A stretch of 64,000 bases of DNA from Haliea sp. E1-2-M8 (GTDB taxonomy: Bacteria > Pseudomonadota > Gammaproteobacteria > Pseudomonadales > Halieaceae). The DNA is taken from positions 1-64,000 of the forward strand of contig NZ_JAUTDR010000006.1 of assembly GCF_030649675.1 (NCBI RefSeq). The letters run 5' to 3'. The notes under the pieces were generated by a model. That model had not been told where the DNA came from. It worked only from the letters and a program-made list of their open reading frames with translations, and did not search any database. The position numbers and the translations under genes were made by a program. Within the stretch, counting starts at the first letter, position 1; every line of letters starts with the position of its first letter. Positions 5,305 through 18,698 of this stretch are shown piece after piece.

Positions 5305-6182
5305 GCGTGTTCACCGTCCAGGGTGTTGATGGGCTGGTACAGGGGTGGGCGCCGGTCCCGGAACACGCCCCAGGCGGTACGCATTTTCTCTATCTCGTCC
5401 AGATCGAAACTGTGTACCAGCACGGTCTCGCTGTCGCCGTCCGCCGCTTCGACCATGGCGCCGGTGTGGTCGGCGATAAAGGAGCCGCCGTAGAAGGTGA
5501 TGTCACTGTCGTCCTGCAGTTCCTGGCCGATGCGGTTGCTGGCGATCAGCGGCATCAGGTTGGCGCCGGCATGGCCCTGTTGCACCCGCTGCCAGTGGTC
5601 GCGGCTGTGGATGGTGGGGTCGTGGGGTTCACTGCCGATGGCGGTGGGGTAGAGCAGCAGCTCGGCCCCCAGCAAGGCCATGCAGCGGGCACTCTCCGGG
5701 AACCACTGGTCCCAGCAAATGCCGACGCCGATTTTGCCATAGCGGGTGCCCCAGACCCGGAAGCCGGTATCCCCGGGGTTGAAGTAGAACTTCTCGTGGT
5801 AGCCGGGTCCGTCCGGGATATGGCTCTTGCGGTAGTTGCCGAGCACGCTGCCGTCGGCGTCGATGATTGCCACCGAGTTGAAGCGGGCGCGCCCCGCCAG
5901 CTCAAAGTAGCTGACAGGCAGCACCACCTGCAGTTCTCGGGCCAGCGCGCGGAAGTGTTGAACCGCCGGGTTCTCTGCCAGCGGGGTCGCCAGCAGCATG
6001 TAGTCTTCATTCGGTTGCTGACAGAAGTAGGGGGTTTCGAACAGCTCCTGCAGCAGGATGACCTGCGCACCCTCGCCATGGGCAGCGCGCACCAGGCGCT
6101 CTCCGTTGGCGATGTTGGCCTCCCGATCCCAGCTACAGGCCATCTGGGTGGCGGCGACGGTAACGTTACGTGCCATGGTCAT
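5301..6182 (-). CDS. aguB: N-carbamoylputrescine amidase
   Basis: A 293-residue carbon-nitrogen hydrolase of the nitrilase superfamily. It converts N-carbamoylputrescine to putrescine, carbon dioxide and ammonia. The catalytic triad is visible: glutamate in [11 protein letters not shown] (E46), lysine in Y-R-K-S-H-I-P-D, and cysteine in [18 protein letters not shown] sequence lies just before the ATG at 6182; a second ATG two codons later is equally possible. It is the first gene of the aguBA pair and diverges from the sulfatase gene. Confidence 0.93.
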
Positions 6183-6414
6183 CTACTCTCCCGCACTGTG
6201 ATTGAAAGGCCCATTGTATGGCCAGGACGTGGATCTTGGGACCCCTTTCATTGCGTCATGGTTACTCTGGGCTTGCCGGCAAACTGTGTTAAAGTCAGAG
6301 GCGCTTGAATCACTGAGATACACTGTTCCGGCATAAAAATATTCCTCAGCGGGCGCTCGCCTTTCCGGTCGGGCCGCCATCGATGCCAGCCAAACAACCA
6401 AGGTGAATGGACTC

Positions 6415-8625
6415 ATGCCCCGATTTATTATCCAGCGTCCGCGCGGACCACTGCTGTTGGCAGCTCTCCTTGTGGGCGCGCTCACAGCCTGCTCTGACGG
6501 CTCCGATTCGACGCCAGTGGTGACGGTGCCGCCGCCGGAGGCGCCCACAGAGCCCGAGCCTCAGCCCGTCAGCACGCCGAATATCCTGTTTATCGTAATG
6601 GACGACCTCGGGATTGATCAGTTGTCGGCATTTGGCTACGGCGGCCACACCCCAGCCCATACTCCCAATATCGATAGTATCGCGGAAGCGGGGGTAAGGT
6701 TCCGCAACGCCTGGTCAATGCCAACCTGTTCGCCTTCCCGGGCCGCATTTTTTGAGGGGCGCTTCCCGTTCCGCACCGATGTGCGTACCGCCATTGTCTC
6801 TACTGACCTGGCAAATTCACAGGTGTCACCCTTTGAAATCACCATTCCCAAGGTCTTGAAACAGCAAGGTTACGTCAACGCTGTGGTGGGCAAGATGCAC
6901 ATCTCCGGGTCGGACCTGAATCCCGCGAACCACCCCCTTGGTGACAGTGTCATGAGGGAATTGGGCTGGGACTATTTCGAGGGCTACCTCGATGGCGGTC
7001 CGTTCCCCATTGATTCAACTGCCGGCGGTGTCGCCGAACCGGGCGTCCACAGCTGCGGATTTGTCCCCAGTATCCAGGACGATCCTCTGCACGGTGCTGA
7101 TGCGGGAGCCTGCTATCAGCCCGACGGTAGCTGTTCGTCGTTGGATCTCGGTGACCACCACACCCCGGGGCGCCTCTGCCTTGAGCGCGGCGGCATCCTC
7201 GATCCCGGCGCGAGTTGCCAGTCCTCGGTCCCTGCGCATATCGACTTCAGCAAGCAGAACGGCTACTACACCGCGGAGTGGGTGATCAACAGTGAAGATG
7301 GCTCGGATACGGTGATTCCCGCCTCGGATGCCAGCAGCCGCGGCTACCGCACAATCATGGAAACCGACCGCGCTGTTGGCTGGATCAATCGTCAGCCCTC
7401 GGGGCAGCCCTGGATGCTCAGCGTCGGCTACTCCGCGATTCACACTCCCATCCAGCCTCCGCCTGAGTCACTGTTGCCGGAAGGCTCCGAGGCGGCAGGC
7501 GGTTTCGATTGCGAGGACGTGCCGCAGCAACGCGTGCTGTCCAACCAGATGCTGGAAGCCATGGACCGTGAGATCGGGCGCTTGTTGGTGGAGTCCGGCC
7601 TGGCACAGCAGGATGACGATGGAACCCTGCGCTATCGCCCCGAGGAAACCAACACCGCGATCGTCATGGTCGGTGACAATGGCACCTATGGACCCAGTGT
7701 AAAGGCGCCGTTCAACCCGACCCTGGCCAAGGGCTTTCCCTACCAGACGGGCATCTGGGTACCCATGCTGGTCGCCGGCCCCATGGTGGTGGAGCCGAAC
7801 CGCGATGTTCCCCACATGGTCAATGTGACCGACCTGTTCAGCCTGTTTGCCGAGTTGGGGGAGGCGAATGTTCGCGAAGCCGTGCCGGCGTTCAGGCAAC
7901 TCGACGCGGAGTCGATGGTTTCATACCTGACTGAACCCGGCCGTGATTCGATTCGGGAGGTCAATTACTCTGCACTGGGCACTAATTTAAGCTCGACCGA
8001 AGCCGCTCTGCCGTCGCCCTGCGTTATCGCCTCCTACAATATTTGTGTGCAGTTGTTCCCACAGCAAGGGGTGTGCGCCGACCAGGGGGGTACCTGGTAC
8101 GGTGCGGACGGGGCTGCAGGGCCAGAGGGGCTGTCATCCTGCTGTGCGGTCAATGACTTTCTGGCCGAGCAGGGGGAAGCACCGGCGGATGTGCTGCCAG
8201 AATCCCAGGCAGCGATTCGCGATGCGGATTACAAACTGCTGAGGATAGCGCGCCGCGACTGCGAGACCGGGGAGCTCCACTCCACCGATGAGTTCTATCA
8301 AATTGATCAGGATGTACCCATCCCCAGGCTGGACAATCCGCAGCTCAACCTGCTGCTCAATGCCCAGCTTTCCGAGCGGCAGATGGAGGCCTACGAGTCT
8401 CTGGACACTGCACTGCAACAGCTGGAGGCCAGCGAGACCGAGTGTGCTGGCGATGGCAATAATGATGGCGTGGTCGATCAGGAAGACGTGAGCAACTGGG
8501 AGCACTTCAGCCAGCGGAACGAGGGTCGCTCCAGTTGGTATGACTTCAACCTGGATGGTCGCACCGACGAGGAGGACCTGGCGGTCATAGAGGCCAATAT
8601 GGGCCTGGACTGCCGGAGCTCCTGA
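6415..8625 (+). CDS. Sulfatase lipoprotein with C-terminal dockerin-like repeats
   Basis: A 736-residue protein. ATG at 6415 is preferred over the GTG at 6403 because AAGGTG at 6400-6405 is well placed and a compact lipoprotein signal results (G-A-L-T-A-C, C26). After a proline-rich linker the sulfatase domain begins with N-I-L-F-I-V-M-D-D. It has the formylglycine signature C-S-P-S-R-A at C105, needed for activity after conversion by a sulfatase-maturing enzyme, and a later V-G-D-N-G-T-Y-G metal-site strand. Residues from about 680 form two EF-hand-like loops (D-G-N-N-D-G-V-V-D and D-F-N-L-D-G-R-T-D), typical of dockerin type I repeats. It probably removes sulfate esters from algal polysaccharides at the cell surface. 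No maturase is nearby. Confidence 0.85.
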   Translation: MPRFIIQRPRGPLLLAALLVGALTACSDGSDSTPVVTVPPPEAPTEPEPQPVSTPNILFIVMDDLGIDQLSAFGYGGHTPAHTPNIDSIAEAGVRFRNAWSMPTCSPSRAAFFEGRFPFRTDVRTAIVSTDLANSQVSPFEITIPKVLKQQGYVNAVVGKMHISGSDLNPANHPLGDSVMRELGWDYFEGYLDGGPFPIDSTAGGVAEPGVHSCGFVPSIQDDPLHGADAGACYQPDGSCSSLDLGDHHTPGRLCLERGGILDPGASCQSSVPAHIDFSKQNGYYTAEWVINSEDGSDTVIPASDASSRGYRTIMETDRAVGWINRQPSGQPWMLSVGYSAIHTPIQPPPESLLPEGSEAAGGFDCEDVPQQRVLSNQMLEAMDREIGRLLVESGLAQQDDDGTLRYRPEETNTAIVMVGDNGTYGPSVKAPFNPTLAKGFPYQTGIWVPMLVAGPMVVEPNRDVPHMVNVTDLFSLFAELGEANVREAVPAFRQLDAESMVSYLTEPGRDSIREVNYSALGTNLSSTEAALPSPCVIASYNICVQLFPQQGVCADQGGTWYGADGAAGPEGLSSCCAVNDFLAEQGEAPADVLPESQAAIRDADYKLLRIARRDCETGELHSTDEFYQIDQDVPIPRLDNPQLNLLLNAQLSERQMEAYESLDTALQQLEASETECAGDGNNDGVVDQEDVSNWEHFSQRNEGRSSWYDFNLDGRTDEEDLAVIEANMGLDCRSS

Positions 8626-8702
8626 CCAGCATCAGTTGCCAGGAAAGGCCGCCCCCCGCGCTCTGTGGCGGGGCCGGACCCTGCATAAAATTTCCACCAC
8701 TA

Positions 8703-8722
8703 ATATATGCTTATACGTATAT
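8703..8722. promoter_or_regulatory. Candidate ArsR operator
   Basis: An AT-rich imperfect inverted repeat, ATATATG then six bases then CGTATAT, lies 50 bases before arsR. ArsR-family repressors usually bind such AT-rich dyads over the promoter of their own operon. The link is inferred from position and form only. Confidence 0.4.
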
Positions 8723-8771
8723 CAGGAGCTATCATGGGATATGCTCGATAATCTGGAGGCGGCACCGCGTC

Positions 8772-9119
8772 ATGAGGGGCGAAAACTTCTTCAAGTGCCT
8801 CGGCAACGAGACCCGCTTGCGCTGTCTGCTGCTGCTGTGGGCGAGGGAGGAGATCTGCGTGTGTGATCTGGCCGATTCCCTGGAGGTTTCCCAGCCGATG
8901 ATTTCCAGGCATCTGGCCCAGCTGCGCGCCTGCAACCTGGTCAGTGACCACCGCGAAGGGCAGTGGGTGTACTACCGGCTCCACGCCGGGCTGGAGCCCT
9001 GGCAGCGCAAGGTACTCGCTGCAACTCGGGAAGGGCTTGGAGCTGGTACCCCTTGTGCAGGGGACCTGCTGCGCCTGCAGGCAATTGAACAACTCAAACG
9101 CGCTGGAGATTGTCGTTAA
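8772..9119 (+). CDS. arsR: ArsR-family arsenite-responsive repressor
   Basis: A 115-residue winged-helix repressor. The N-terminal F-F-K-C-L-G-N-E-T-R-L-R matches the ArsR family, and the metal-sensing motif I-C-V-C-D-L places the two cysteines (C29 and C31) in the recognition-helix region. That is the classical arsenite/antimonite site. It should release DNA on binding trivalent arsenic and derepress the genes that follow. The ATG at 8772 is the only start, since a stop codon lies in frame just upstream; its ribosome binding site (GGAG) is rather far away. It is the first gene of the operon that continues to at least 16142. Confidence 0.9.
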   Translation: MRGENFFKCLGNETRLRCLLLLWAREEICVCDLADSLEVSQPMISRHLAQLRACNLVSDHREGQWVYYRLHAGLEPWQRKVLAATREGLGAGTPCAGDLLRLQAIEQLKRAGDCR

Positions 9120-9200
9120 CGGTTCCTGAGCGCTTGTAGAGAAACCTCTCAGCTGCGCGGGAATGCAATCCAACCCTCGTCATCTGTTACGGAGTTTTGC

Positions 9201-10217
9201 ATGAGCATCAAAATTGGGATAAACGGTTTTGGCCGCATCGGCCGTCTGGCGTTACGCGCTGCATGGGATTGGCCCGAGGTCGAGTTCGTTCATATCAACG
9301 ATCCCGCAGGGGATGCTGCAACCCTGGCGCATTTGCTGACATTCGACTCGGTACACGGCCGCTGGGATTACGAAGCCACCGCCGAAGACAGCGGGATTGT
9401 GGTGGATGGACAGCGCATAGGCATCAGCTGCAACACCCGTATCGAGGAGACCGACTGGTCGGGCTGCGACCTGGTCATCGAGGCCAGCGGCAAGATGAAG
9501 ACGGTCGAAGTGCTCAATGCCTACCTGGCCCAGGGCGTCAAGCGGGTGGTAGTCACCGCGCCGGTAAAGGAGCCGGAAGCACTGAACGTGGTCATGGGTG
9601 TCAATGATCACCTCTATGACCCGCAGACTCACAAGATTGTCACCGCAGCTTCCTGCACCACCAATTGCCTGGCGCCGGTGGTCAAGGTGATCCATGAGAG
9701 CCTGGGCATCCGCCACGGCAGCATGACCACCATCCACAGTGTGACCAACACCCAGACCATTCTCGACGCCCCGCACAAGGATCTGCGCCGCGCCCGCGCC
9801 TGCGGCATGAGCCTGATTCCCACCACTACCGGCTCCGCAACCGCGATCACCGAGATTTTCCCCGAGCTCAAGGGGCGGCTGAACGGCCACGCGGTGCGGG
9901 TGCCGCTGGCCAATGCCTCGCTGACCGACTGTGTGTTCGAAGTGGAGACGGCGACCACTGCTGAAGCCGTCAATCAGCTGCTCAAAACGGCCGCGGAATC
10001 GGGCCCACTGCAGGATATTCTCGGATACGAGGAGCGGCCGCTGGTGTCTATCGATTACAAGACCGACCCGCGCTCGAGCATTATTGATGCCCTGTCGACC
10101 ATGGTGGTCCACGACACCCAGGTAAAAATCTACGCCTGGTACGACAACGAGTGGGGCTACGCCAACCGCACGGCCGAACTGGCGCTGAAAGTCGGGCGCT
10201 CGCACCTGGGCGCCTGA
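9201..10217 (+). CDS. ArsJ-associated glyceraldehyde-3-phosphate dehydrogenase
   Basis: A 338-residue type I GAPDH. It has the NAD-binding [10 protein letters not shown] start, the catalytic A-S-C-T-T-N (C152) and the W-Y-D-N-E-W-G-Y motif near the C terminus. Known ars-operon GAPDH enzymes use arsenate in place of phosphate and make 1-arseno-3-phosphoglycerate, which ArsJ exports. The position, 2 bases ahead of arsJ and 81 bases after arsR, supports that role rather than central glycolysis. GGAG precedes the ATG by seven bases. Confidence 0.92.
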
Positions 10218-10219
10218 CC

Positions 10220-11452
10220 ATGCTGGGCCACCTCTCTCCCGAAATCCGTCAGTACCTGGTGGTCACCGGCAACTACTGGGCTTTCACCCTGACTGATGGC
10301 GCCCTGCGCATGCTGGTAGTGCTGCACTTCCATGGGCTGGGTTATTCGCCGTTGGAAATTGCACTGCTGTTTCTGTTCTACGAAATCTTCGGGGTGATCA
10401 CCAACCTGGTGGGGGGCTGGCTCGGCGCGCATGTGGGCCTCAACCGCACCATGAATGTCGGGCTGGCGCTGCAGGTTATCGCCCTGGCCATGCTGCTGGT
10501 GCCCGCGGCCCTTTTGACCGTGCCCTGGGTCATGGCGGCCCAGGCGCTGTCCGGCATCGCCAAGGACCTGAACAAAATGAGTGCCAAGAGTTCGATCAAG
10601 CTGCTGGTGCCAGCCGATTCGCAGGGCACGCTGTACAAGTGGGTGGCCATTCTCACTGGGTCGAAGAACGCCCTCAAGGGGGCGGGCTTTTTCCTCGGCG
10701 GGGTGCTGCTGATGTGGCTGGGCTTTGCCGGCGCCGTGGGGGCGATGGCGGTCGCCCTGGCGCTGGTCTGGTTGGCAAGCCTGGTATTCCTGAAAAAGGA
10801 TCTGGGCAAGGCGAAGAACAAGCCGAGATTCCGCGAAATCCTGTCCAAGAGCCGCGCCATCAACATTCTTTCGGCGGCTCGGATGCTGCTGTTCGGCGCC
10901 CGGGATGTCTGGTTCGTGGTGGCCCTGCCAGTATTCCTGTCGCAAACCCTGGGCTGGAACCATAGCCAGACGGGTGGCTTTCTCGCTGTCTGGGTCATCG
11001 GCTACGGAGCGGTGCAAGCGATCGCCCCGCGGATTACGGGAAGCGTTAAAGGGTCGGTTCCGGATGGGCGATCAGCTACCCTGTGGGCAGCCAGCCTGGC
11101 ACTGTTGCCCGCAGTGATCGCGTTGGGCCTGGGAGCAGGAATCAATCCCACCATGGTCCTGATTGGCGGCCTGCTCCTGTTCGGCGTGCTGTTCGCGATC
11201 AACTCCTCGCTGCACAGCTATCTTATAGTGAGTTATGCGGGCAGAGACGGCGTGTCGCTGGATGTCGGTTTCTACTACATGGCCAACGCCATGGGGCGGC
11301 TGATCGGTACGGTGCTGTCGGGCTGGGTGTTCCAATTGGCTGGTCAGGGAACGGCCGGGTTGGCTGCCTGCCTGTGGATTTCCGCAGCGATGCTGGTAGC
11401 AACGGTCATTATTTCCCTCTGGCTGCCCGGAGCAAGAAGGAGTGCACCATGA
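10220..11452 (+). CDS. arsJ: Organoarsenical efflux permease ArsJ
   Basis: A 410-residue major facilitator superfamily transporter with about eleven or twelve hydrophobic segments. It begins [12 protein letters not shown] and carries the [10 protein letters not shown] loop typical of ArsJ. ArsJ exports 1-arseno-3-phosphoglycerate, which then breaks down outside the cell. The start at 10220 lies 2 bases after the GAPDH stop, and the last bases overlap the acr3 start as ATGA. This tight coupling gives the arsenate-detoxifying pair directly. Confidence 0.92.
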
Positions 11453-12534
11453 GTCTGTTTGAGCGCTATCTTTCCTTGTGGGTGTTGCTCTGTATTGTCG
11501 CGGGCATCACCTTGGGCACCCTGCTACCGGATGCCTTTCAGATGCTTGCCGGGCTGGAGTATGGCTCGGTCAACTTTGTTGTTGCGGTACTGATCTGGTT
11601 CATGGTGTACCCCATGATGGTGTCGGTGGATTTCACCAGCCTGAGGCACATTCACAAGCGTCCCAAAGGCCTGGTGATCACTCTGGTGGTCAACTGGCTG
11701 ATCAAGCCGTTCACCATGGCGGCGCTGGGCGTGTTGTTCTTTGAGGTGGTATTCGCCGATCTGGTCGACCCGGCCAACGCGAGCCAATATATCGCCGGCA
11801 TGATTCTCCTGGGAGCGGCTCCCTGTACCGCGATGGTATTTATCTGGTCACAGCTGACGCGGGGGGACGCCAATTACACCCTGGTTCAGGTTGCTCTCAA
11901 CGACGTCATCATGATTTTCGCGTTTGCGCCGATTGTTGCTCTGCTGCTGGGTGTAACCGACATCAACGTGCCCTGGACAACCCTGCTGTTGTCGGTGGTG
12001 CTGTATGTGGTCATTCCGCTGGTGGCTGGCGCCCTTACCCGGATGCGTCTGGTCCGCAATGCCGGCCCCGGGGCGCAGGGTGAAGCTCAGGTATCGCGCT
12101 TTACCTCGAGCATCAAGCCGCTGTCGGTATTGGGGCTGCTGGCGACGGTGGTACTGCTGTTCGGCTTTCAGGGACAGATTATTCTCGATCAGCCAGTGTT
12201 GATTGCGTTGATTGCTGTGCCTCTGCTGATTCAGTCCTACGGGATCTTTGCCATTGCTTACGCGGCAGCCTACTTGTGGCGGGTGCCGTTCAACGTTGCG
12301 GCTCCCTGTGCCCTGATTGGCACCTCCAATTTTTTCGAGCTGGCGGTGGCCGTGGCCATTGGGCTGTTCGGTCTCAATTCCGGCGCTGCTTTGGTGACCG
12401 TCGTCGGTGTGCTGGTAGAGGTGCCGGTGATGCTTTCTTTGGTAGCCTTCGCCAATCGCACCAGTCACTGGTTCCCCGCTGCGGAAAAGAGTCGCGCAGC
12501 CGGCGCTGCTTCACCTGCTAAGGAGAAAGTCTGA
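11449..12534 (+). CDS. acr3: ACR3-family arsenite efflux transporter
   Basis: A 361-residue integral membrane protein with ten predicted hydrophobic segments. The conserved [13 protein letters not shown] segment carries the ACR3 cysteine (C126) needed for arsenite transport, followed by the family sequence [12 protein letters not shown]. It expels arsenite using the proton motive force. AAGGAG at 11437-11442 is six bases from the ATG, and the start overlaps the arsJ stop. Together with GAPDH/ArsJ the operon handles both arsenite and arsenate. No arsC arsenate reductase is seen in the window. Confidence 0.93.
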
Positions 12535-13400
12535 TGTTCACGTCCGCACTGGTTGCCCTGGATTTATCTCCAGCCGAAGAACCGATTCTCGACTGCCTGC
12601 CCGACCTCCTCGAGTGGGGAGTCAGCAAGGTCACTCTCGGCCATGTGATTCCGGTGGGTTATAACCAGTTTGCCGGCTACGGTCATGAAGATGACTACCG
12701 GGCCTGGCTGGAAAAGTGTGCTGTGCCACTGCGCGAATCGGGTTTGGATGTCGCGATTGTTGTACGTAGCGCGGGTGCAGTGGCTGATGAATTACTGGCC
12801 GTCGCTGCGGATGTCGAGGCCGACCTTGTCGTTATCGGCTCGCGCGGACAAAGCCGGGTTCGCAGCCTGTTCATTGGCAGTGTCGCCCGCGACGTGCTGC
12901 GCAAGACGACGCGGCCGGTTCTCATGGAGTGGGTGGAACCCAGCGCCGACAAGACCCGGGAGCACTGTGAGGCCGTTTGCAAGAAAGCTCTTGCGCATGT
13001 GCTGCTGGCCACGGACCTGTCCAAGCATGCCGCGAGAGCGGAAAGCGCTTTCATCGAACTGGCGGGCAGGGCGGGGCAAAGTGATCTGCTCACTGTTTTA
13101 ACCCCGGATGTCCTGGACGGGACGCCCGCCTTGCCCGTTATGGTCGCCGCGGCACTTGACGACATTCGCAAGCGGCTGCCGCCGCAGGCGACACAGGGCA
13201 AGCCACTGATCGAAGAGGGCAAGCCCTGTGACACCATCGCTCATGTCGCTGAGGAACGTGAGTGCACCCTGATTATTATCGGCAAACACGGTCAGGGCTG
13301 GCTGGAAAGCACAGTCATCGGTTCCACCGCTGCAAGACTCTGCGAAACCGCTCGTCGCCCGGTACTGATGGTGCCCATCAAGGAGCAGGAGCGCATATGA
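12534..13400 (+). CDS. Tandem universal stress protein
   Basis: A 288-residue cytoplasmic protein with two UspA domains. The first (about 1-140) ends with V-V-I-G-S-R-G-Q-S-R-V and F-I-G-S-V-A, and the second (about 155-285) with I-I-G-K-H-G-Q-G-W and V-I-G-S-T-A. Both match the G-2x-G-9x-G-S/T ATP-binding pattern. The start overlaps the acr3 stop (TGATG) and the stop overlaps the next small frame (ATGA). The gene is therefore an integral part of the arsenic operon. Its task there is unknown. Confidence 0.88.
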   Translation: MFTSALVALDLSPAEEPILDCLPDLLEWGVSKVTLGHVIPVGYNQFAGYGHEDDYRAWLEKCAVPLRESGLDVAIVVRSAGAVADELLAVAADVEADLVVIGSRGQSRVRSLFIGSVARDVLRKTTRPVLMEWVEPSADKTREHCEAVCKKALAHVLLATDLSKHAARAESAFIELAGRAGQSDLLTVLTPDVLDGTPALPVMVAAALDDIRKRLPPQATQGKPLIEEGKPCDTIAHVAEERECTLIIIGKHGQGWLESTVIGSTAARLCETARRPVLMVPIKEQERI

Positions 13401-13429
13401 CAGCCACCATGGGTGCGCAGGAGGCCATC

Positions 13430-13516
13430 ATGACAACTGATTTAAAGGAAATCGATGACACGATACTGGTGAGCTCTGACTCGCTTACCGATCACTGCTT
13501 GAGGGAGTCGCCGTGA
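13430..13516 (+). CDS. Putative 28-residue microprotein in the ars operon
   Basis: A very short frame between the stress protein and ATP-grasp genes. AGGAGG at 13419-13424 is a near-perfect Shine-Dalgarno five bases before the ATG at 13430. The product has 28 residues, is acidic and begins M-T-T-D-L-K-E-I-D-D. An alternative start at 13397 in the same frame overlaps the usp stop (ATGA) and would give 39 residues. The stop overlaps the GTG start of the next gene (GTGA). This placement suggests either a real small protein or a translational coupling device. No family is recognised. Confidence 0.5.
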   Translation: MTTDLKEIDDTILVSSDSLTDHCLRESP

Positions 13517-14823
13517 GTGGACTGGCAGGTCTCAATCAACAGTGCTTTTGCTTGAGCCTTGATGAGGGCGCACTAAGCCGGGCGCTGGAAACGGAGCTGG
13601 GCGAGCAGGGCCTCTACCAATTGACCCGTGAACGCTGCCCCTATCTCTTTTCAGCGCAGCCGGTGTTTGTCGCAGATGACCACATCCGGCGCATGAACGC
13701 CGTTATTGGCGCAGTCGAAACCGTGGTCAAATCCAGTCAATGGCGGGATAGGGTGCTTGACTCCGCACCAGCCATTGCCCGTCACCACCCCGGTGGTGCC
13801 AGGGGCGTCTTCATGGGGTACGACTTTCATATCGGCCCCGATTCGGTCGGGCTGATAGAAATCAATACCAACGCCGGCGGAGCCCTGCTCAATGCGGTGC
13901 TGGCCCGCGCCCAGCGCGCCTGCTGCCCGGAAGTGGCCGACCTGGTTCCGAACGCGGCGACCGCCCTGCAACTGGAGCAGTCCATTGTTGCCATGTTTCG
14001 GCGGGAGTGGGAGCTTTCGGGTCATGACCGGCCATTGCGGTCCATCGCGATTGTCGATGAAAACCCGATGGAGCAATATCTGTATCCGGAATTCGTTCTG
14101 TTCCGGCAACTGTTCCAGCGCTGCGGAATCGACGCGGTGATCGTGACGCCGGAGCAACTGCGCTTCGGGAATGGCGCACTCTGGGCTGGGTCCAGGCCCA
14201 TCGATCTGGTCTACAACCGGCTGACAGATTTTCTGCTTGAGCAGAACGGCGTAGCAGCCATTCGCGAAGCCTACCTGGCAAACGCAGTGGTACTGACGCC
14301 TCATCCACAGACCCATGCTCTCTATGCCGACAAGCGCAATCTGGCACTGCTTACTGACCCGCTGGAACTGGACGCCATGCAGGTTCCTGACAGCCTGCAA
14401 CAGATACTCTTGCAAGGTATTCCCCACACGGAGATCGTCGACCCCGCCCACGCCGATCGCCTGTGGGCTGAACGCAAACGACTGTTTTTCAAGCCCGCAA
14501 GCGGTTATGGAAGCAAGGCCGCCTGGCGCGGCGACAAGATCACCAAACGAGTATGGAGTGAAGTGCTGGCGGGCGAATACGTCGCCCAGGCCTTGGTCGC
14601 CCCGGGAGAGCGCTTCGCCCTGGGAGAAACCACTCCGCTGGTGTTCAAGTACGATCTGCGCAACTATGTTTACGATGGCGCGGTGCAGTGGGTGGCAGCG
14701 CGATTGTACCAGGGTCAGACTACCAACTTCCGCACCCCGGGTGGCGGTTTCGCTCCGGTGTACCAAGGGCAATCCGATTGCACGGAATCCGCTAGCACTA
14801 CTTGTCAATGGAGCACAGAATGA
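13513..14823 (+). CDS. ATP-grasp-like ligase of unknown substrate
   Basis: A 436-residue protein. The F-F-K-P-A-S-G-Y-G-S-K-A-A block near residue 325, followed by E-Y-V-A-Q, resembles the ATP-binding K-P-x-x-G-Y-G-G-K of circularly permuted ATP-grasp enzymes. An L-I-E-I-N-T-N-A-G-G block near residue 115 resembles the metal-binding end of the fold. The C-terminal Q-T-T-N-F-R-T-P-G-G-G-F-A is strongly patterned. Such enzymes usually join an acid to an amine or thiol, so a peptide or thiol ligase is possible, but the substrate cannot be read from the sequence. The start is a GTG overlapping the previous stop, and its own stop overlaps the next ATG. Its presence in an arsenic operon suggests a role in thiol or stress chemistry. 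Confidence 0.6.
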   Translation: MSGLAGLNQQCFCLSLDEGALSRALETELGEQGLYQLTRERCPYLFSAQPVFVADDHIRRMNAVIGAVETVVKSSQWRDRVLDSAPAIARHHPGGARGVFMGYDFHIGPDSVGLIEINTNAGGALLNAVLARAQRACCPEVADLVPNAATALQLEQSIVAMFRREWELSGHDRPLRSIAIVDENPMEQYLYPEFVLFRQLFQRCGIDAVIVTPEQLRFGNGALWAGSRPIDLVYNRLTDFLLEQNGVAAIREAYLANAVVLTPHPQTHALYADKRNLALLTDPLELDAMQVPDSLQQILLQGIPHTEIVDPAHADRLWAERKRLFFKPASGYGSKAAWRGDKITKRVWSEVLAGEYVAQALVAPGERFALGETTPLVFKYDLRNYVYDGAVQWVAARLYQGQTTNFRTPGGGFAPVYQGQSDCTESASTTCQWSTE

Positions 14824-15278
14824 GAATCGAATCTATCGAAACACTGATCGATTGGACCAGGGAGGTCCATTTTCATTTGGCCAAAGCCCTTGCGGCAGGT
14901 CAGCAAATCCAGCAGGAGGAACGAGCGAGAGAGCTGCTGGAATATCTTCAGCAACAGGAAACCGAGCTGGGAAAAATGGTTGCCGGTTTTGAAGAGCAGG
15001 CAGATCCCAAAGCCTTGCACACCATGGTCTACGACTATGAAGTGCACTCGCCGCTTGAAATCGACCGCCTCTCCGACAAGCCCTATGGAACCATGACCTA
15101 CGATGCCATTGCCGCGGATGTCTTTGCCAGCCACCAGCAGATCCAGGAGCTCTACCGCTATCTGCTCGGTCGCTCCGCCATTCCCGAGGAACAGGAGTTG
15201 CTGGAAGCGCTGTTGGGCGTTGAGGAGCACGAAACCATGCAGCTGTCCCAGCAGATCAATCGCGGCCGGGATATCTGA
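14820..15278 (+). CDS. Helical ferritin-like protein, unknown function
   Basis: A 152-residue, almost wholly helical protein. ATG at 14820 is chosen because it overlaps the previous stop as ATGA and has GGAG six bases upstream; an ATG at 14808 has no such site. Helices carry E and H residues in spacing that recalls ferritin-like or rubrerythrin-like four-helix bundles, for example T-R-E-V-H-F-H-L near the N terminus, Q-Q-Q-E-T-E-L, and E-E-H-E-T-M near the C terminus. A di-iron site is possible but not demonstrated. It is coupled to the ATP-grasp-like gene and is followed after 24 bases by the monooxygenase gene. Confidence 0.5.
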   Translation: MRIESIETLIDWTREVHFHLAKALAAGQQIQQEERARELLEYLQQQETELGKMVAGFEEQADPKALHTMVYDYEVHSPLEIDRLSDKPYGTMTYDAIAADVFASHQQIQELYRYLLGRSAIPEEQELLEALLGVEEHETMQLSQQINRGRDI

Positions 15279-15302
15279 ATCCGGGTTCGGGAGTATTGTG
15301 CA

Positions 15303-16142
15303 ATGGGGACCAAGCTCTTCGACGTGATCATTATTGGCGGTGGCCAGGCGGCGCTCGCGGTAGGATATCTTCTCACGAAGGCGTCACTGGACTTTATACT
15401 CCTTGACGATCAGCACGAGCCCGGTGGTGCATGGCTCCACGCCTGGGAGTCCCTGCGGCTGTTTTCGCCCGCCACCCTCAGCTCGCTGCCGGGAATCATG
15501 CTGCAGCAACGCGACGATGCGGGGTTTCCCCATCGAGACGATGTGCTCCCCTATTTGCGTCGCTATGAAGAGCGCTACCAACTGCCGGTTTATCGCCCCC
15601 ACCATGTCGACAAGGTCATGCGGGATGCGGAGAACAACTGTTTTTTGGTGTCCGACGGCACGTACCAGTGGCGAACTCGCGCCGTGGTCAGCGCTACCGG
15701 CACCTGGAGCCACGCCTTTACCCCCAGTTATCCCGGGCAGGAACACTTCCGGGGGAAACAGCTGCACTCGGCACAGTATCGAGAGCCCAATCAATTCAAG
15801 GGCCAGCGTGTGCTGGTCGTTGGTGGCGGCAACTCCGGAGCGCAGATCCTGGCAGAAGTCGCCGAGGTGGCGAACGCCTCGTGGGTAACCCTGTCGGATC
15901 CCGTGTTCCTGCCCGACGATGTGGATGGCCGTGTGTTGTTCGAGCGGGCGACCGCCAGGCTCAAGGGGGATGCAGAGGGTGCTACTGTGGGCGGCATCGG
16001 CGACATTGTCATGGTGCCACCGGTCAAGGCCGCACGGGACAAGGGCATTCTTGCCAGCACGAGGCCGTTTACCGCGTTCACCGAATCGGGTGTTGTGTGG
16101 CCGGATGGATCAGCGGAAGACATTGACGCTGTCATCAGCTGA
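15303..16142 (+). CDS. Flavin monooxygenase, ArsO-like, C-terminally truncated
   Basis: A 279-residue NAD(P)/FAD-dependent oxidoreductase. The FAD site I-I-I-G-G-G-Q-A-A-L-A-V-G-Y is at residues 9-22, a middle V-S-A-T-G-T-W motif follows, and the NADPH site V-V-G-G-G-N-S-G-A is near residue 180. It resembles the ArsO flavoproteins found in ars operons. Family members usually run to about 350 residues with a conserved W-C-T-G-F-R block after D-A-V-I. Here the frame stops right after D-A-V-I-S, so about 70 residues are missing and no remnant is seen downstream. It may be inactive. The position directly after the coupled ars genes supports a former arsenic role. Confidence 0.7.
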   Translation: MGTKLFDVIIIGGGQAALAVGYLLTKASLDFILLDDQHEPGGAWLHAWESLRLFSPATLSSLPGIMLQQRDDAGFPHRDDVLPYLRRYEERYQLPVYRPHHVDKVMRDAENNCFLVSDGTYQWRTRAVVSATGTWSHAFTPSYPGQEHFRGKQLHSAQYREPNQFKGQRVLVVGGGNSGAQILAEVAEVANASWVTLSDPVFLPDDVDGRVLFERATARLKGDAEGATVGGIGDIVMVPPVKAARDKGILASTRPFTAFTESGVVWPDGSAEDIDAVIS

Positions 16143-16230
16143 TTACATATTTGGATGACGTGGGGCAGAAATAAACGCGTAACAATGGGCGGTGCCTGTC
16201 ACACAGGTGTCGTGAATCGTGAGGTTGGCC

Positions 16231-16566
16231 ATGGAAAAAATACAGCTTGATAAGTTTTACGAGCAGCTGTGTCAGATGCGCGCAGAGATGCTGTCAAGGC
16301 GTGAAGTCTCCCGGGAGGCAGCCGGTACGGTGACACTAGACCAGACTTCCGTCGGTCGCCTGTCGCGCATGGATGCGCTGCAGTCCCAGCAAATGGCCAT
16401 CGAGGTGCAGCGTCGCAAGGAACAGATGCTGACCCGTATCGAGGGTGCAATCAGGCGCATCGACAAGGGCGAATTCGGGGAATGTTTTGAGTGTGGAGAG
16501 GATATCAGTCTGGCCCGCTTGCGTGTCGACCCTACGGTGACACGCTGCATTAGCTGCCAGAAATAG
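16231..16566 (+). CDS. DksA/TraR-family zinc-finger protein
   Basis: A 111-residue protein. ATG at 16231 has GAGG six bases upstream. An N-terminal helical part is followed by the C4 zinc finger C-F-E-C-G-E-D-I then C-I-S-C-Q-K at the C terminus, and the R-I-D-K-G-E-F-G motif before it is typical. DksA relatives bind in the secondary channel of RNA polymerase and modulate initiation; short stand-alone members are common near mobile or stress genes. It lacks the length of housekeeping DksA (about 150 residues). It sits between a truncated monooxygenase and a broken symporter, so the local junctions look rearranged. Confidence 0.8.
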   Translation: MEKIQLDKFYEQLCQMRAEMLSRREVSREAAGTVTLDQTSVGRLSRMDALQSQQMAIEVQRRKEQMLTRIEGAIRRIDKGEFGECFECGEDISLARLRVDPTVTRCISCQK

Positions 16567-16579
16567 CGGGGCTCCCGGT

Positions 16580-17573
16580 GTGACCCCAACAGTCATCGCA
16601 TTCCTGCTCTGTCTTGCCGGTTTTGTGCTGATCGGCGTATTGTCCCACCGTTACGCGCAAAGCAGCTGCCGGTGGCATTCGCGCCGCAATCTGGACCGAT
16701 GCCGCACAGGCGATAGTGATGATCGTGGCCATGTTCCTGATGCTGTGGGTGGCTGTAGACCATCTGGGCGGATTGAGTGCCACCTGGCAGCAGCTCAACC
16801 AGGTGTCTCCCGACTACATGGATGTGTGGCCTGGCGCCGTGGTGGGGCTGGCCAGTCCCTGGGGTCCGACGCTCTTTATCGTGGGTTGGCTGTTCGCCGG
16901 TTTCAGCGTCATCGGCCAGCCTCACATCATGATACGTTTCATGTCGCTGGATTCGGCGGCCAGCACCAATCGCGCACGACTCTACTACTACGCCTGGTAT
17001 GTGGCCTTCTATCTGGCGGCCAATAGCGTGGGCCTCCTCTCGCGCCTGCTGATTCCGGAGTCGGATTCCTTTGACCCTGAGCTGGCGTTGCCGACCATGG
17101 CGCTGGATCTGTTGCCACCGGTGCTGGTTGGCCTGGTGCTGGCCGGGGTGTTTGCCGCCACTATCTCCACGGGCGACTCCCTGGTGCTGACCTGCTCGGC
17201 CGCGTTGACCGAGGACGCGATGGGCAAGACCCAGAAGTTGTGGCGGGTGAAGACGGCGACGGTGACGGTGGTGGCACTGGCGTTGGGGATCGCCCTGTCC
17301 GGGCCGCAGAACGTGTTTGATCTGGTGGTGGTTTCCTGGGGCGTGCTGGGCGCCACCTTCGCGCCATTGCTGCTGGTCTACATATTCGGCTATCGCCCTG
17401 GCGAGGGGCTCGCTTTCGTGATGGTGCTCGCCGCCCTGGTGGCGGTCTATGGCTGGACGCGGATTCCTTTGCTGACTGAATACTACGAGGGCATGTTCGG
17501 CATCATCGTCGGGCTGGCGGTATTTGCCCTGGGACGCATGCTCGGGTTCTGTGGGCCGCGCAAGCGGGTGTAA
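16580..17573 (+). pseudogene. Sodium/solute symporter (PutP-like) pseudogene with internal deletion
   Basis: The first 26 codons from a GTG at 16580 encode the first membrane helix of a sodium/proline symporter-like protein, ending near S-H-R-Y-A-Q. At about 16655-16665 the homology jumps, in another frame, to a later helix (A-A-G-G-I-R-A-A-I-W-T-D-A-A-Q), which then stays open to 17573. Between the two, roughly 140 residues (the next helices and the sodium-site loop) are absent. A normal relative has about 490-500 residues. An internal ATG at 16716 could still make a 285-residue fragment, but it would lack the N-terminal helices and is unlikely to transport. This is a deletion plus frameshift. 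Confidence 0.75.
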
Positions 17574-17603
17574 CTGCCGCTTGCGCCACTTCCGCTGTCC
17601 TCC

Positions 17604-18698
17604 TCAGACGTTGAATCGGAAGTGAATCACATCGCCGTCCTGCACGATGTAGTCCTTGCCTTCCAGCCGCCAGCGGCCCGCATCCTTGGCACCCTGTTCC
17701 CCTTTGTAGGCGATGAAGTCTTCGTAGCTGATGACCTCGGCGCGAATAAAGCCCTTCTGGAAATCCGTGTGGATGACGCCCGCGGCTTCCGGCGCAGTGG
17801 CGCCGACTTTCACGGTCCAGGCGCGCACTTCTTTTTCCCCGGCGGTGAAATAGGTCTGCAGGTTGAGTAGCTGATAGCCGGCGCGGATCACCCGGTCCAG
17901 CCCCGGCTCTTCCATGCCCAGGTCCTGCAGGAATTCCAGACGCTCGGAGTCCTCCAGTTCGACGATTTCCGACTCCAGCTTGTTGCAGATGGCCACGACA
18001 ATCGCCCCTTCGCTGACGGCGATGTCGCGCACGGTGTCCAGGTAGGGGTTTTCGTCGAAGCCGTCTTCATCGACATTGGCGATATACATGGTTGGTTTGA
18101 CGGTGAGCAGATGCAGGGTTTTGACCAGGGCTCGCTCCGCGTCGTCCAGCGTCAGGGAGCGCACCGGCAATGCCTCGTTCAGGTGTGGCAGCAGCTTGTT
18201 TTCCAGCAGCGCCTTGAGTGCGATGGCCTCCTTGTCGCCGCCCTTGGCATTACGGGTGACCCGCTGCAGCTGTTTTTCGCAGCTCTCCAGATCCGCCAGC
18301 GCCAGCTCGGTGTTGATCACGTCGATATCCGAGCGCGGGTCTACCCGGTTGGCAACGTGGATCACGTTGTCGTCATTGAAGCAGCGCACCACGTGGGCGA
18401 TGGCGTCGGTCTCGCGGATATTGGCCAGGAACTGGTTGCCCAGGCCTTCACCCTTGGAGGCGCCTGCCACCAGTCCTGCAATGTCGACAAACTCCATGGT
18501 GGTGGAGACTTCCCGCTGCGGCTTGACGATTTCGGCGATGCGCTGCTGGCGCGGGTCCGGTACCGGCACGACGCCGGCATTGGGCTCGATGGTGCAGAAG
18601 GGGAAATTCTCCGCATCAATGCCGGCCCGGGTCAGGGCGTTGAACAGGGTGGACTTGCCGACGTTGGGCAGCCCGACGATTCCGCATTTGAAACCCAT
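17604..18698 (-). CDS. ychF: Ribosome-binding ATPase YchF
   Basis: A 364-residue Obg-family P-loop ATPase of standard length. It has G-L-P-N-V-G-K-S-T (Walker A, residues 9-17), D-I-A-G-L-V[14 protein letters not shown] (switch II) and the N-V-D-E-D base-recognition region in place of the usual GTPase N-K-x-D, followed by a C-terminal TGS domain. It binds ribosomes and hydrolyses ATP. It follows pth on the minus strand, the usual order in this group, and is convergent with the symporter pseudogene. Confidence 0.97.

Follow-up and report, generated by a model that had tools for sequence, protein, structure and literature searches.

The question raised by this locus is whether a run of genes joined to an arsenic operon serves defence against arsenic alone or the handling of toxic metals more widely. 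The locus lies within positions 1 to 64,000 of contig NZ_JAUTDR010000006.1 of Haliea sp. E1-2-M8 (RefSeq assembly GCF_030649675.1); this whole stretch of 64,000 nucleotides is called the window here. An ArsJ/Acr3 operon continues there into genes for a universal stress protein (Usp), a very short open reading frame (ORF), an ATP-grasp ligase, a four-helix protein and an ArsO-like monooxygenase. A sequence-only reading of the window had suggested that the added genes could form a small thiol or metal-handling module working with arsenic export. We find that the ATP-grasp protein has the predicted fold of the glutathione synthetases and that its relatives recur beside resistance genes for arsenic and for copper or other heavy metals. 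The interest of the locus lies in this undescribed family of ATP-grasp proteins, which is linked to several metals and not to arsenic alone, and the ligase probably helps cells to handle toxic metals.

The genes of the operon are as follows.

8772..9119, + strand: arsR-type metalloregulator gene (NF033788, a general metalloregulator model, 94 bits, cut-off 55)
9201..10217, + strand: gene for the ArsJ-associated glyceraldehyde-3-phosphate dehydrogenase (GAPDH; NF033735, 579 bits, cut-off 450)
10220..11452, + strand: arsJ, organoarsenical efflux transporter of the major facilitator superfamily (NF033734, 613 bits, cut-off 400)
11449..12534, + strand: acr3, arsenite efflux transporter (TIGR00832, 402 bits, cut-off 282.8), with an ATGA overlap with arsJ
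12534..13400, + strand: usp, with two Usp domains (PF00582, 120.4 bits over two stretches, cut-off 24) and a TGATG overlap with acr3
13397..13516, + strand: micro-ORF of 39 codons, or 28 if read from the ATG at 13430, with ATGA and GTGA overlaps
13513..14823, + strand: ATP-grasp ligase gene with a GTG start, predicted glutathione-synthetase fold (AlphaFold2 model, fold matches, conserved residues)
14820..15278, + strand: gene for a four-helix, plausibly ferritin-like protein of 152 residues with a His/Glu pattern (alignment A2; weak model, fold and profile matches)
15303..16142, + strand: arsO-like flavin monooxygenase gene without about 75 C-terminal residues (NF040505, 401 bits, under the cut-off of 425)

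The gene order, the coordinates and the TGATG, ATGA, GTGA and ATGA overlaps of the sequence-only reading all read back from the sequence, the shared bases being 12532-12536 (acr3/usp), 13397-13400 (usp/micro-ORF), 13513-13516 (micro-ORF/ATP-grasp) and 14820-14823 (ATP-grasp/four-helix). The same is true of the 24 bases between the four-helix stop and the ATG of the arsO-like gene, two genes that do not overlap. The run of close junctions begins earlier, however, at the GAPDH gene and not at acr3. Given that only 2 bases separate the GAPDH gene from arsJ and that arsJ and acr3 share an ATGA (11449-11452), the genes from GAPDH through the four-helix gene make up one packed unit. GAPDH and ArsJ export arsenate as 1-arseno-3-phosphoglycerate, while Acr3 exports arsenite. 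All three score over their cut-offs in the window, which adds the usp, ATP-grasp and four-helix genes to this known pathway. PMC6620896 and PMC7826186 cite Chen 2016 in this connection.

Searched at E up to 1, the ATP-grasp protein has no match in Pfam or NCBIfam, and it matches no PHROG and no PDB sequence; a search of PDB sequences with its profile returned two chance-level matches (E 0.71 and 1). Its AlphaFold2 model, built on 27 sequences (the window and its relatives in genomes), has a predicted local distance difference test score (pLDDT) of 87.8 and a predicted TM-score of 0.88. Among PDB entries, Foldseek (E 7e-14) places this model nearest to eukaryotic-type glutathione synthetase and homoglutathione synthetase, together with a putative glutathionylspermidine synthase and Cp1B. 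VIA-align ranks YgiC first (Z 27.8, with a root-mean-square deviation of 3.7 over 355 aligned residues, and 27.5), followed by YjfC (27.4), human glutathione synthetase (26.4), glutathionylspermidine synthetase (GspS) and homoglutathione synthetase (both 26.2) and Cp1B (22.7). The first 26 entries (Z 22.7-27.8) are all of the glutathione synthetase/GspS class and cover approximately residues 2-421, and Z falls to 13.6, then to 9.5 and below, for other enzymes. Hence, the modelled protein has the three-domain ATP-grasp fold over its whole chain and is predicted to be folded throughout like YgiC, glutathionylspermidine synthetase and the glutathione synthetase of eukaryotic type. The label 'ATP-grasp-like' in the sequence-only reading was correct, and the model and VIA-align narrow it to the glutathione-synthetase fold.

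This likeness is one of structure. The eukaryotic-type glutathione and homoglutathione synthetases (PDB 2hgs, 3kal and 1m0w; Z 26.4, 26.2 and 24.2) have the same fold and the same Asp/Glu/Asn triad as the ligase, but are only 13-14% identical to it. E. coli Gss, YgiC/YjfC and trypanothione synthetase are likewise structural neighbours (Z 23-28); unlike Gss, the ligase has no amidase domain. Kinship in sequence to GspS/YgiC was tried and rejected, as hhalign gives a probability under 1% (0.2-0.3% to E. coli Gss), and the protein does not reach the profile cut-off of the glutathionylspermidine synthase family. Nevertheless, in this otherwise non-significant alignment, D104, E116 and N118 pair at the same spacing with D318, E330 and N332 of GspS, which we take to be ligands of the fold class, and all three are invariant in the 31-row alignment of the family (31/31) as well as in a wider set (67/67). 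Four cysteines are similarly constant: a CxC near the N-terminus (C11, C13) and a CC at C137 and C138. In the 31 rows, C11 is kept in 30 and the other three in all; in the wider set, C13 is found in 61/61 and C11 in 60/61 of the rows that reach them, C137 in 67/67 and C138 in 66/67. The model has short strands at 14-16 and 134-136, which may pair and thereby join the two cysteine pairs. These four extra conserved cysteines and the setting in bacterial metal islands distinguish the ligase from glutathione synthetases, and to our knowledge Cp1B has no cysteine signature.

Among 84,980 species genomes, ATP-grasp relatives number at least 585, and 32 plasmid records carry them. Neighbourhoods were compared at 66 loci taken from the best 80 of these at least 585 relatives, hence those nearest to the window; dropped from the 80 were four loci without a clean gene call (L056, L060, L068 and L073, of which L060 has acr3-like matches just upstream) and ten at 90% or more identity. 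The controls were 40 random 18-kb stretches from 12 contigs of 12 ATP-grasp-carrying genomes, other than those of the 66 loci. Neighbours were scored with a labelled tblastn panel whose thresholds were chosen after the tblastn matches were known. NCBIfam and Pfam tallies on 128 flanking proteins were diluted by cross-matches and uneven gene calls, and a greedy clustering of ORFs contained reverse-strand shadow ORFs, which were excluded from the counts.

Within 2 kb of the ligase, ars genes occur at 14/66 loci versus 0/40 controls (Fisher p 7e-4), copper or heavy-metal genes at 15/66 versus 0/40 (p 4e-4), and a metal gene of any kind at 32/66 versus 1/40 (p 1e-7). Within 5 kb the counts become 14/66, 24/66 and 41/66, against 0/40, 0/40 and 2/40; within 9 kb they are 15, 26 and 43 of 66, against 0, 2 and 3 of 40, with mercury genes at 2 versus 0. 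Stricter definitions leave the linkage in place. Restricting ars genes to acr3, arsJ, the ArsJ-type GAPDH and arsO retains 8/66 loci within 2 kb (p 0.02) and 9/66 within 5 kb (p 0.01), with 0/40 controls each time. The P-type ATPases and resistance-nodulation-division (RND) pumps of the panel are not copper-specific; copper markers counted without P-type ATPases are found at 9/66 loci within 2 kb (p 0.01) and 16/66 within 5 kb (p 2e-4), again with 0/40 controls. Any metal gene other than arsC gives 26/66 versus 1/40 at 2 kb (p 6e-6) and 36/66 versus 2/40 at 5 kb (p 5e-8). The linkage of the ligase to metals in general is therefore firm, and that to arsenic alone is real, on fewer loci. By annotation, a gene for copper, mercury, a heavy-metal ATPase or a cation diffusion facilitator (CDF) is present in 19 of the 23 plasmid neighbourhoods from the 32 records, the remainder having RND efflux only (L026, L035), DUF305 only, a possible clue (L040), or uninformative names (L047); none of the 23 has an annotated ars gene.

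The co-occurrence with ars genes that the sequence-only reading had proposed as a check is thus borne out: the linkage does not look accidental, and the glutathione-synthetase fold suits its thiol or metal-handling module. Its restriction to arsenic does not hold, given the larger share of copper and heavy-metal loci at 5 kb. The same reading had held that, should these genes occur mostly away from ars genes, the linkage would be accidental. Most relatives do lie elsewhere, yet this does not make the linkage accidental, since metal-resistance islands account for many of those other sites.

Several observations weigh against a metal-dedicated ligase or limit its link to arsenic. The panel was partly built from plasmid neighbours of the same family, while the controls come from other genomes. 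No panel metal gene lies within 2 kb at 34/66 loci, nor within 5 kb at 25/66 (30 without arsC). Six of the 14 ars loci rest within 2 kb on arsC-like genes only, which score 52-130 bits against arsenate-reductase cut-offs of 157.6-215 and hence may be other low-molecular-weight phosphatases. At six loci (L115, L117, L124-L127) the ligase stands beside mobB, a gene found in 1/40 controls. The ATP-grasp and four-helix genes, present in 16 and 7 genomes of a sample of the class, occur together there in G000 and weakly in G095. The literature yielded no assayed enzyme of the family, and a shared fold does not show function. Finally, the Arg of the class (R316 in GspS, R139 in Cp1B) is not kept, position 102 being Gly or Ser in all 31 and all 67 rows; because of this replacement, the chemistry of the family may differ from that of the glutathione-synthetase class. 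As reported in PMC12568646, Cp1B (PDB 9cjn) is a fungal ATP-grasp amide ligase of the biosynthesis of the protease inhibitor E-64 and, unlike the window protein, keeps Arg139; R139, D141, E163 and N165 surround the nucleotide, and their change to Ala abolishes or weakens activity.

The six soft ars loci differ in their further neighbours. In L057, acr3 follows at a distance of 3.3 kb and an ArsR-type gene exceeds the cut-off of its model, and L074 and L120 combine arsC-like with ArsR-type matches. L102, L114 and L119 combine arsC-like with pstS matches, with pstS over its cut-off and phoR over the Pfam cut-off in L102; in these three loci a PhoR-type kinase precedes the ligase (Pfam PhoR in 3 flanking proteins), a neighbourhood of arsenate-phosphate type.

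The neighbours also bear on another explanation, namely that the ligase is a general enzyme of stress or energy metabolism and that its link to metals arises from mobile islands shared under harsh conditions. Genes for Usp, polyphosphate kinase, acetate kinase, phosphoketolase and sugar enzymes lie near the ligase in L025, L043, L044 and L045, the 128 flanking proteins include acetate kinase (2), CBS (3) and glucoamylase (3) families, and the six mobB-side copies point the same way, with a MoeA-type gene after the ligase and a helicase gene before it in L115. This explanation has to account for metal genes within 2 kb at nearly half of the 66 loci (26 strictly), as opposed to a single control, and for several ars loci in which the ligase abuts acr3 or lies between an arsR-type gene and acr3. 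We consider it unlikely, though with an appreciable chance. The six mobB-side loci themselves have no panel metal gene within 5 kb and possibly reflect another role; four of them are titled Rhodocyclales or bear the name of a genus that we place in that order.

The arrangement of ligase and ars genes differs from locus to locus. The ligase abuts acr3 in L048, L081 and L109 and is convergent with arsJ in L049, L050 and L051, of which L050 also has acr3 just upstream. The order is ligase-acr3-arsO in L083, with an ArsR-like match before it, and in L078 arsJ and the GAPDH gene are near the ligase on the opposite strand. Outside the 66-locus set, L167 reads arsR-ligase-acr3 and L166 ligase-GAPDH-arsJ-acr3. 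In a tree with 84 rows, 18 of them labelled ars, that label requires 11 changes, at least four of them forced by well-supported branches; without the soft ars cases (13 ars rows) it requires 9, still with at least four forced, and the copper label (37 rows) requires 14, at least eight of them forced. This is a quick tree supported by SH-like approximate likelihood ratios (SH-aLRT) only, and each change may be a gain or a loss. Of the 30 non-window rows in alignment A1, 17 were given their labels by hand and the other 13 were unused; L014 and L121 are probably one locus, CDF, RND and chromate neighbours count as 'neither', and L078, which has both kinds, counts as 'ars'. The forced changes, together with the differing gene arrangements, favour repeated recruitment of the ligase into ars settings.

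In four relatives the ligase carries about 105-130 extra C-terminal residues that are alike among them (L025:8279-8599, L026:8252-8623, L031:8240-8620, L034:9285-9677). A fused four-helix domain was considered as their identity and rejected, since the four-helix query has no match in these four; the extensions of L025 and L034, the two that were searched, match no Pfam family.

Given this evidence, we tentatively read the ATP-grasp protein as an amide ligase of metal islands that makes a thiol or other chelator and is here part of an ArsJ/Acr3 operon, at a likelihood just short of even. On entry of arsenic, ArsR would derepress the operon; GAPDH and ArsJ would deal with arsenate and Acr3 with arsenite, while the accessory genes of metal islands would have been joined to this cassette. 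The ligase, which would be translated from the operon's own transcript, most likely uses ATP to activate a carboxylate, such as that of glutathione, of gamma-glutamylcysteine or of some other metabolite, and joins this to an amine to form an amide. The product would be a small thiol, another chelator or a modified glutathione that buffers the metal before export, holding As(III) here and, where the ligase sits in copper or mercury islands, Cu(I) or Hg(II). C11, C13, C137 and C138 probably bind metal, either tuning the enzyme or keeping metal near its product; the four-helix protein would probably assist in this handling by binding metal or as a diiron protein, with Usp as an accessory at the level of stress.

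In trypanosomatids, trivalent arsenic is bound by glutathione-spermidine thiols. A bolder version of the chelator reading is that the family is a mobile bacterial counterpart of the phytochelatin and trypanothione defences, in which metal bound to the CxC and CC cysteines switches on the synthesis of a chelating thiol, and which has repeatedly been recruited to As, Cu and Hg islands; we regard this version as rather doubtful. If the ligase does make a metal-binding thiol, bacteria would gain an inducible and transferable chelation step, and the repertoire of arsenic operons would extend from reduction, methylation and export to biosynthesis. The family is without a Pfam, NCBIfam, PHROG or PDB sequence match and often sits beside resistance genes for several thiol-seeking metals, and the window protein, probably soluble, is a concrete target. 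Among the open-licence papers searched, none places this family in an ars or copper operon, as judged by titles and the opening lines of abstracts.

The ranking of folds also brings in a peptide or protein modifier, a ligase that would add an amine or amino acid to the carboxylate of a peptide or protein and so shield thiol proteins from metals. YgiC and YjfC head the VIA-align list, where rows within 1 Z are tied, the RefSeq name of E. coli YgiC is peptide--spermidine ligase, and the variable N-terminal tail of the family with its fixed CxC could be substrate-like. Against it, no conserved partner peptide was seen. The micro-ORF, tried as the precursor peptide of a graspetide-like system of ribosomally synthesized and post-translationally modified peptides, has no match in a search of 72,556 plasmid records with E as high as 10, nor among 46 other loci at E up to 0.001, whole genomes lying outside that search; in G006, which is the nearest relative, acr3 runs directly into the ligase gene and leaves it no room. 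It was dropped as a precursor because of this lack of homologues and the abutting genes. Thus, the window does not offer a conserved precursor peptide beside the ligase, the search having covered the micro-ORF and not other peptides, and we hold a modifier of peptides or proteins to be rather unlikely. As for the ORF of 28-39 residues listed by the sequence-only reading, its frame and overlaps are present, but with no relative found it does not look like a conserved part of a module. It is a candidate gene and possibly a mere translational spacer.

To return to the chelator reading, its proposed partner, the four-helix protein, exceeds no Pfam cut-off and matches no NCBIfam family. Counting its own genome, relatives occur in 14/58 near genomes, in 7 of the 369 sampled from the class and on 9 plasmid records. 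The four-helix gene is present in 8/8 near genomes that have the ATP-grasp gene versus 6/50 that do not (p 2e-6) and, by genus, in 4/4 versus 5/45 (p 6e-4); these p values are loose, as the genomes are related and the 58 include the genome of the window. In G001, G004, G006, G007 and G024 the gene is convergent with a second ATP-grasp gene, with match ends 68-108 bases apart, and copper-resistance genes surround the pair in G001, G004, G006 and G024, the four in which a wider stretch was read. In Halomonas HAL1 it overlaps a gene for a heavy-metal P-type ATPase by 8 bases.

Across 25 aligned four-helix rows, H17 is kept in 25, E47, H105 and E135 in 24 each, H46 and E138 in 23 each, and H137 in 22; the window has Q46. 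Judged from this pattern, the conserved Glu and His look like metal ligands set on four helices. The model, made from a single sequence, is poor (pLDDT 56); it matches bacterioferritin at a Z of 8, a value common for helical bundles, and other folds score equally. Weak profile matches were to CopM (E 0.0015) and to designed diiron bundles (E ~0.01-0.02); kinship with DUF305, considered because of the weak CopM match, gave no signal. The term 'ferritin-like' used by the sequence-only reading is hence plausible: conserved Glu and His do fall in predicted helices, but the model is poor and no described family matches. In 5 of the 9 plasmid records the relatives are named 'ATPase' (those of L155, L156, L158 and L159 each lie at 6001-6459), a name to which the sequences seen lend no support.

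Both Usp domains of the window carry the G2xG9xGS motif, at residues 102 and 250, and we take G2xG9xG(S/T) in Usp to be nucleotide-binding. In G076, a Usp homologue (37% over 278 residues, over the Pfam cut-off) follows acr3 with a 98-codon ORF between them, and this locus (L238) has no ATP-grasp match. PMC6620896 reports uspA in the ars clusters of two species, Alkalilimnicola ehrlichii and Thioalkalivibrio jannaschii, which resemble the window in this; in T. jannaschii it is upregulated under arsenite, joined at 5 mM by ACR3 and two hypothetical genes. Among the 66 ATP-grasp loci, the panel gives a Usp match at none (0/66), and an annotated usp lies near the ligase in two plasmid loci, at 0.3 kb in L044 and at 5.7 kb in L045. 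Hence, both usp and the ATP-grasp gene turn up repeatedly near acr3, and this window unites them.

The arsO-like ORF ends at residue 279 and covers positions 2-275 of the 346 in the NF040505 profile. Complete ArsO homologues over the cut-off reach position 345, both in the two found among the 369 class genomes and in L083, where an ArsO of 354 residues (569 bits) sits near another ATP-grasp gene; the window protein aligns with the latter over residues 1-279 of 354 at 58.7%. Its 401 bits and early end place it outside ArsO membership (425 bits over a full length of 346). Since it stops at position 275 where full homologues run on to 345, the gene is a 3'-truncated copy. The ArsO-like identity given by the sequence-only reading is sound, as is its spacing; a conserved part of a module it does not appear to be.

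Three further features describe the site in which the operon lies.

6188..17599, no strand: island segment of ~11.4 kb, whose flanks adjoin in G001, G003, G004 and G007
16231-16566, directly after the truncated arsO: DksA/TraR-type C4 zinc-finger gene (Pfam PF01258 over cut-off)
16580-17573: sodium:solute symporter remnant (profile positions 153-395 of 406 only)

The genus has seven further genomes in the set, and the insertion site was compared in five of them, leaving out G005 and G002 (contig too short). In the four genomes just listed, the sequence that ends at ~6,177-6,188 of the window adjoins that which starts at ~17,599, so the ~11.4 kb between them are absent from these congeners: a sulfatase gene (over the Pfam cut-off), the arsenic operon, the dksA/traR-like gene and the symporter remnant. 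The insertion point is intergenic, beside ychF. The fifth genome, G006, has at the same site a shorter segment that reads arsR-GAPDH-arsJ-acr3-ATP-grasp, without a match to usp, the four-helix gene or arsO. The window thus has usp and the micro-ORF in addition between acr3 and the ligase, and the four-helix gene and arsO after it. Because acr3 also stands directly before the ligase in L081, L109 and L110, gain of these genes in the window is favoured over their loss in G006. Taken as a whole, the arsenic cassette was probably acquired.

This history lends itself to one more explanation, in which usp, the ATP-grasp gene, the four-helix gene and the truncated arsO are passengers gathered by recombination, some of them already decaying. 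The cut arsO, the symporter remnant behind it, the leaner segment of G006 and the lack of the whole segment in four congeners all agree with it. It fits less well with ATP-grasp and four-helix ORFs that are intact and keep nearly all of their conserved residues (Q46 in place of H46 in the four-helix protein), with the start-stop overlap of these two genes, or with an ATP-grasp linkage that is repeated at other ars loci, and we judge such an assembly improbable. An Rfam scan of 8000-18000 gave no match, and promoter- and terminator-like sites at the locus are not above those of shuffled sequence. Of the two genes that follow arsO, the DksA/TraR-type protein scores below the DksA equivalog cut-off, and the likely start of the symporter remnant lies upstream in a different reading frame.

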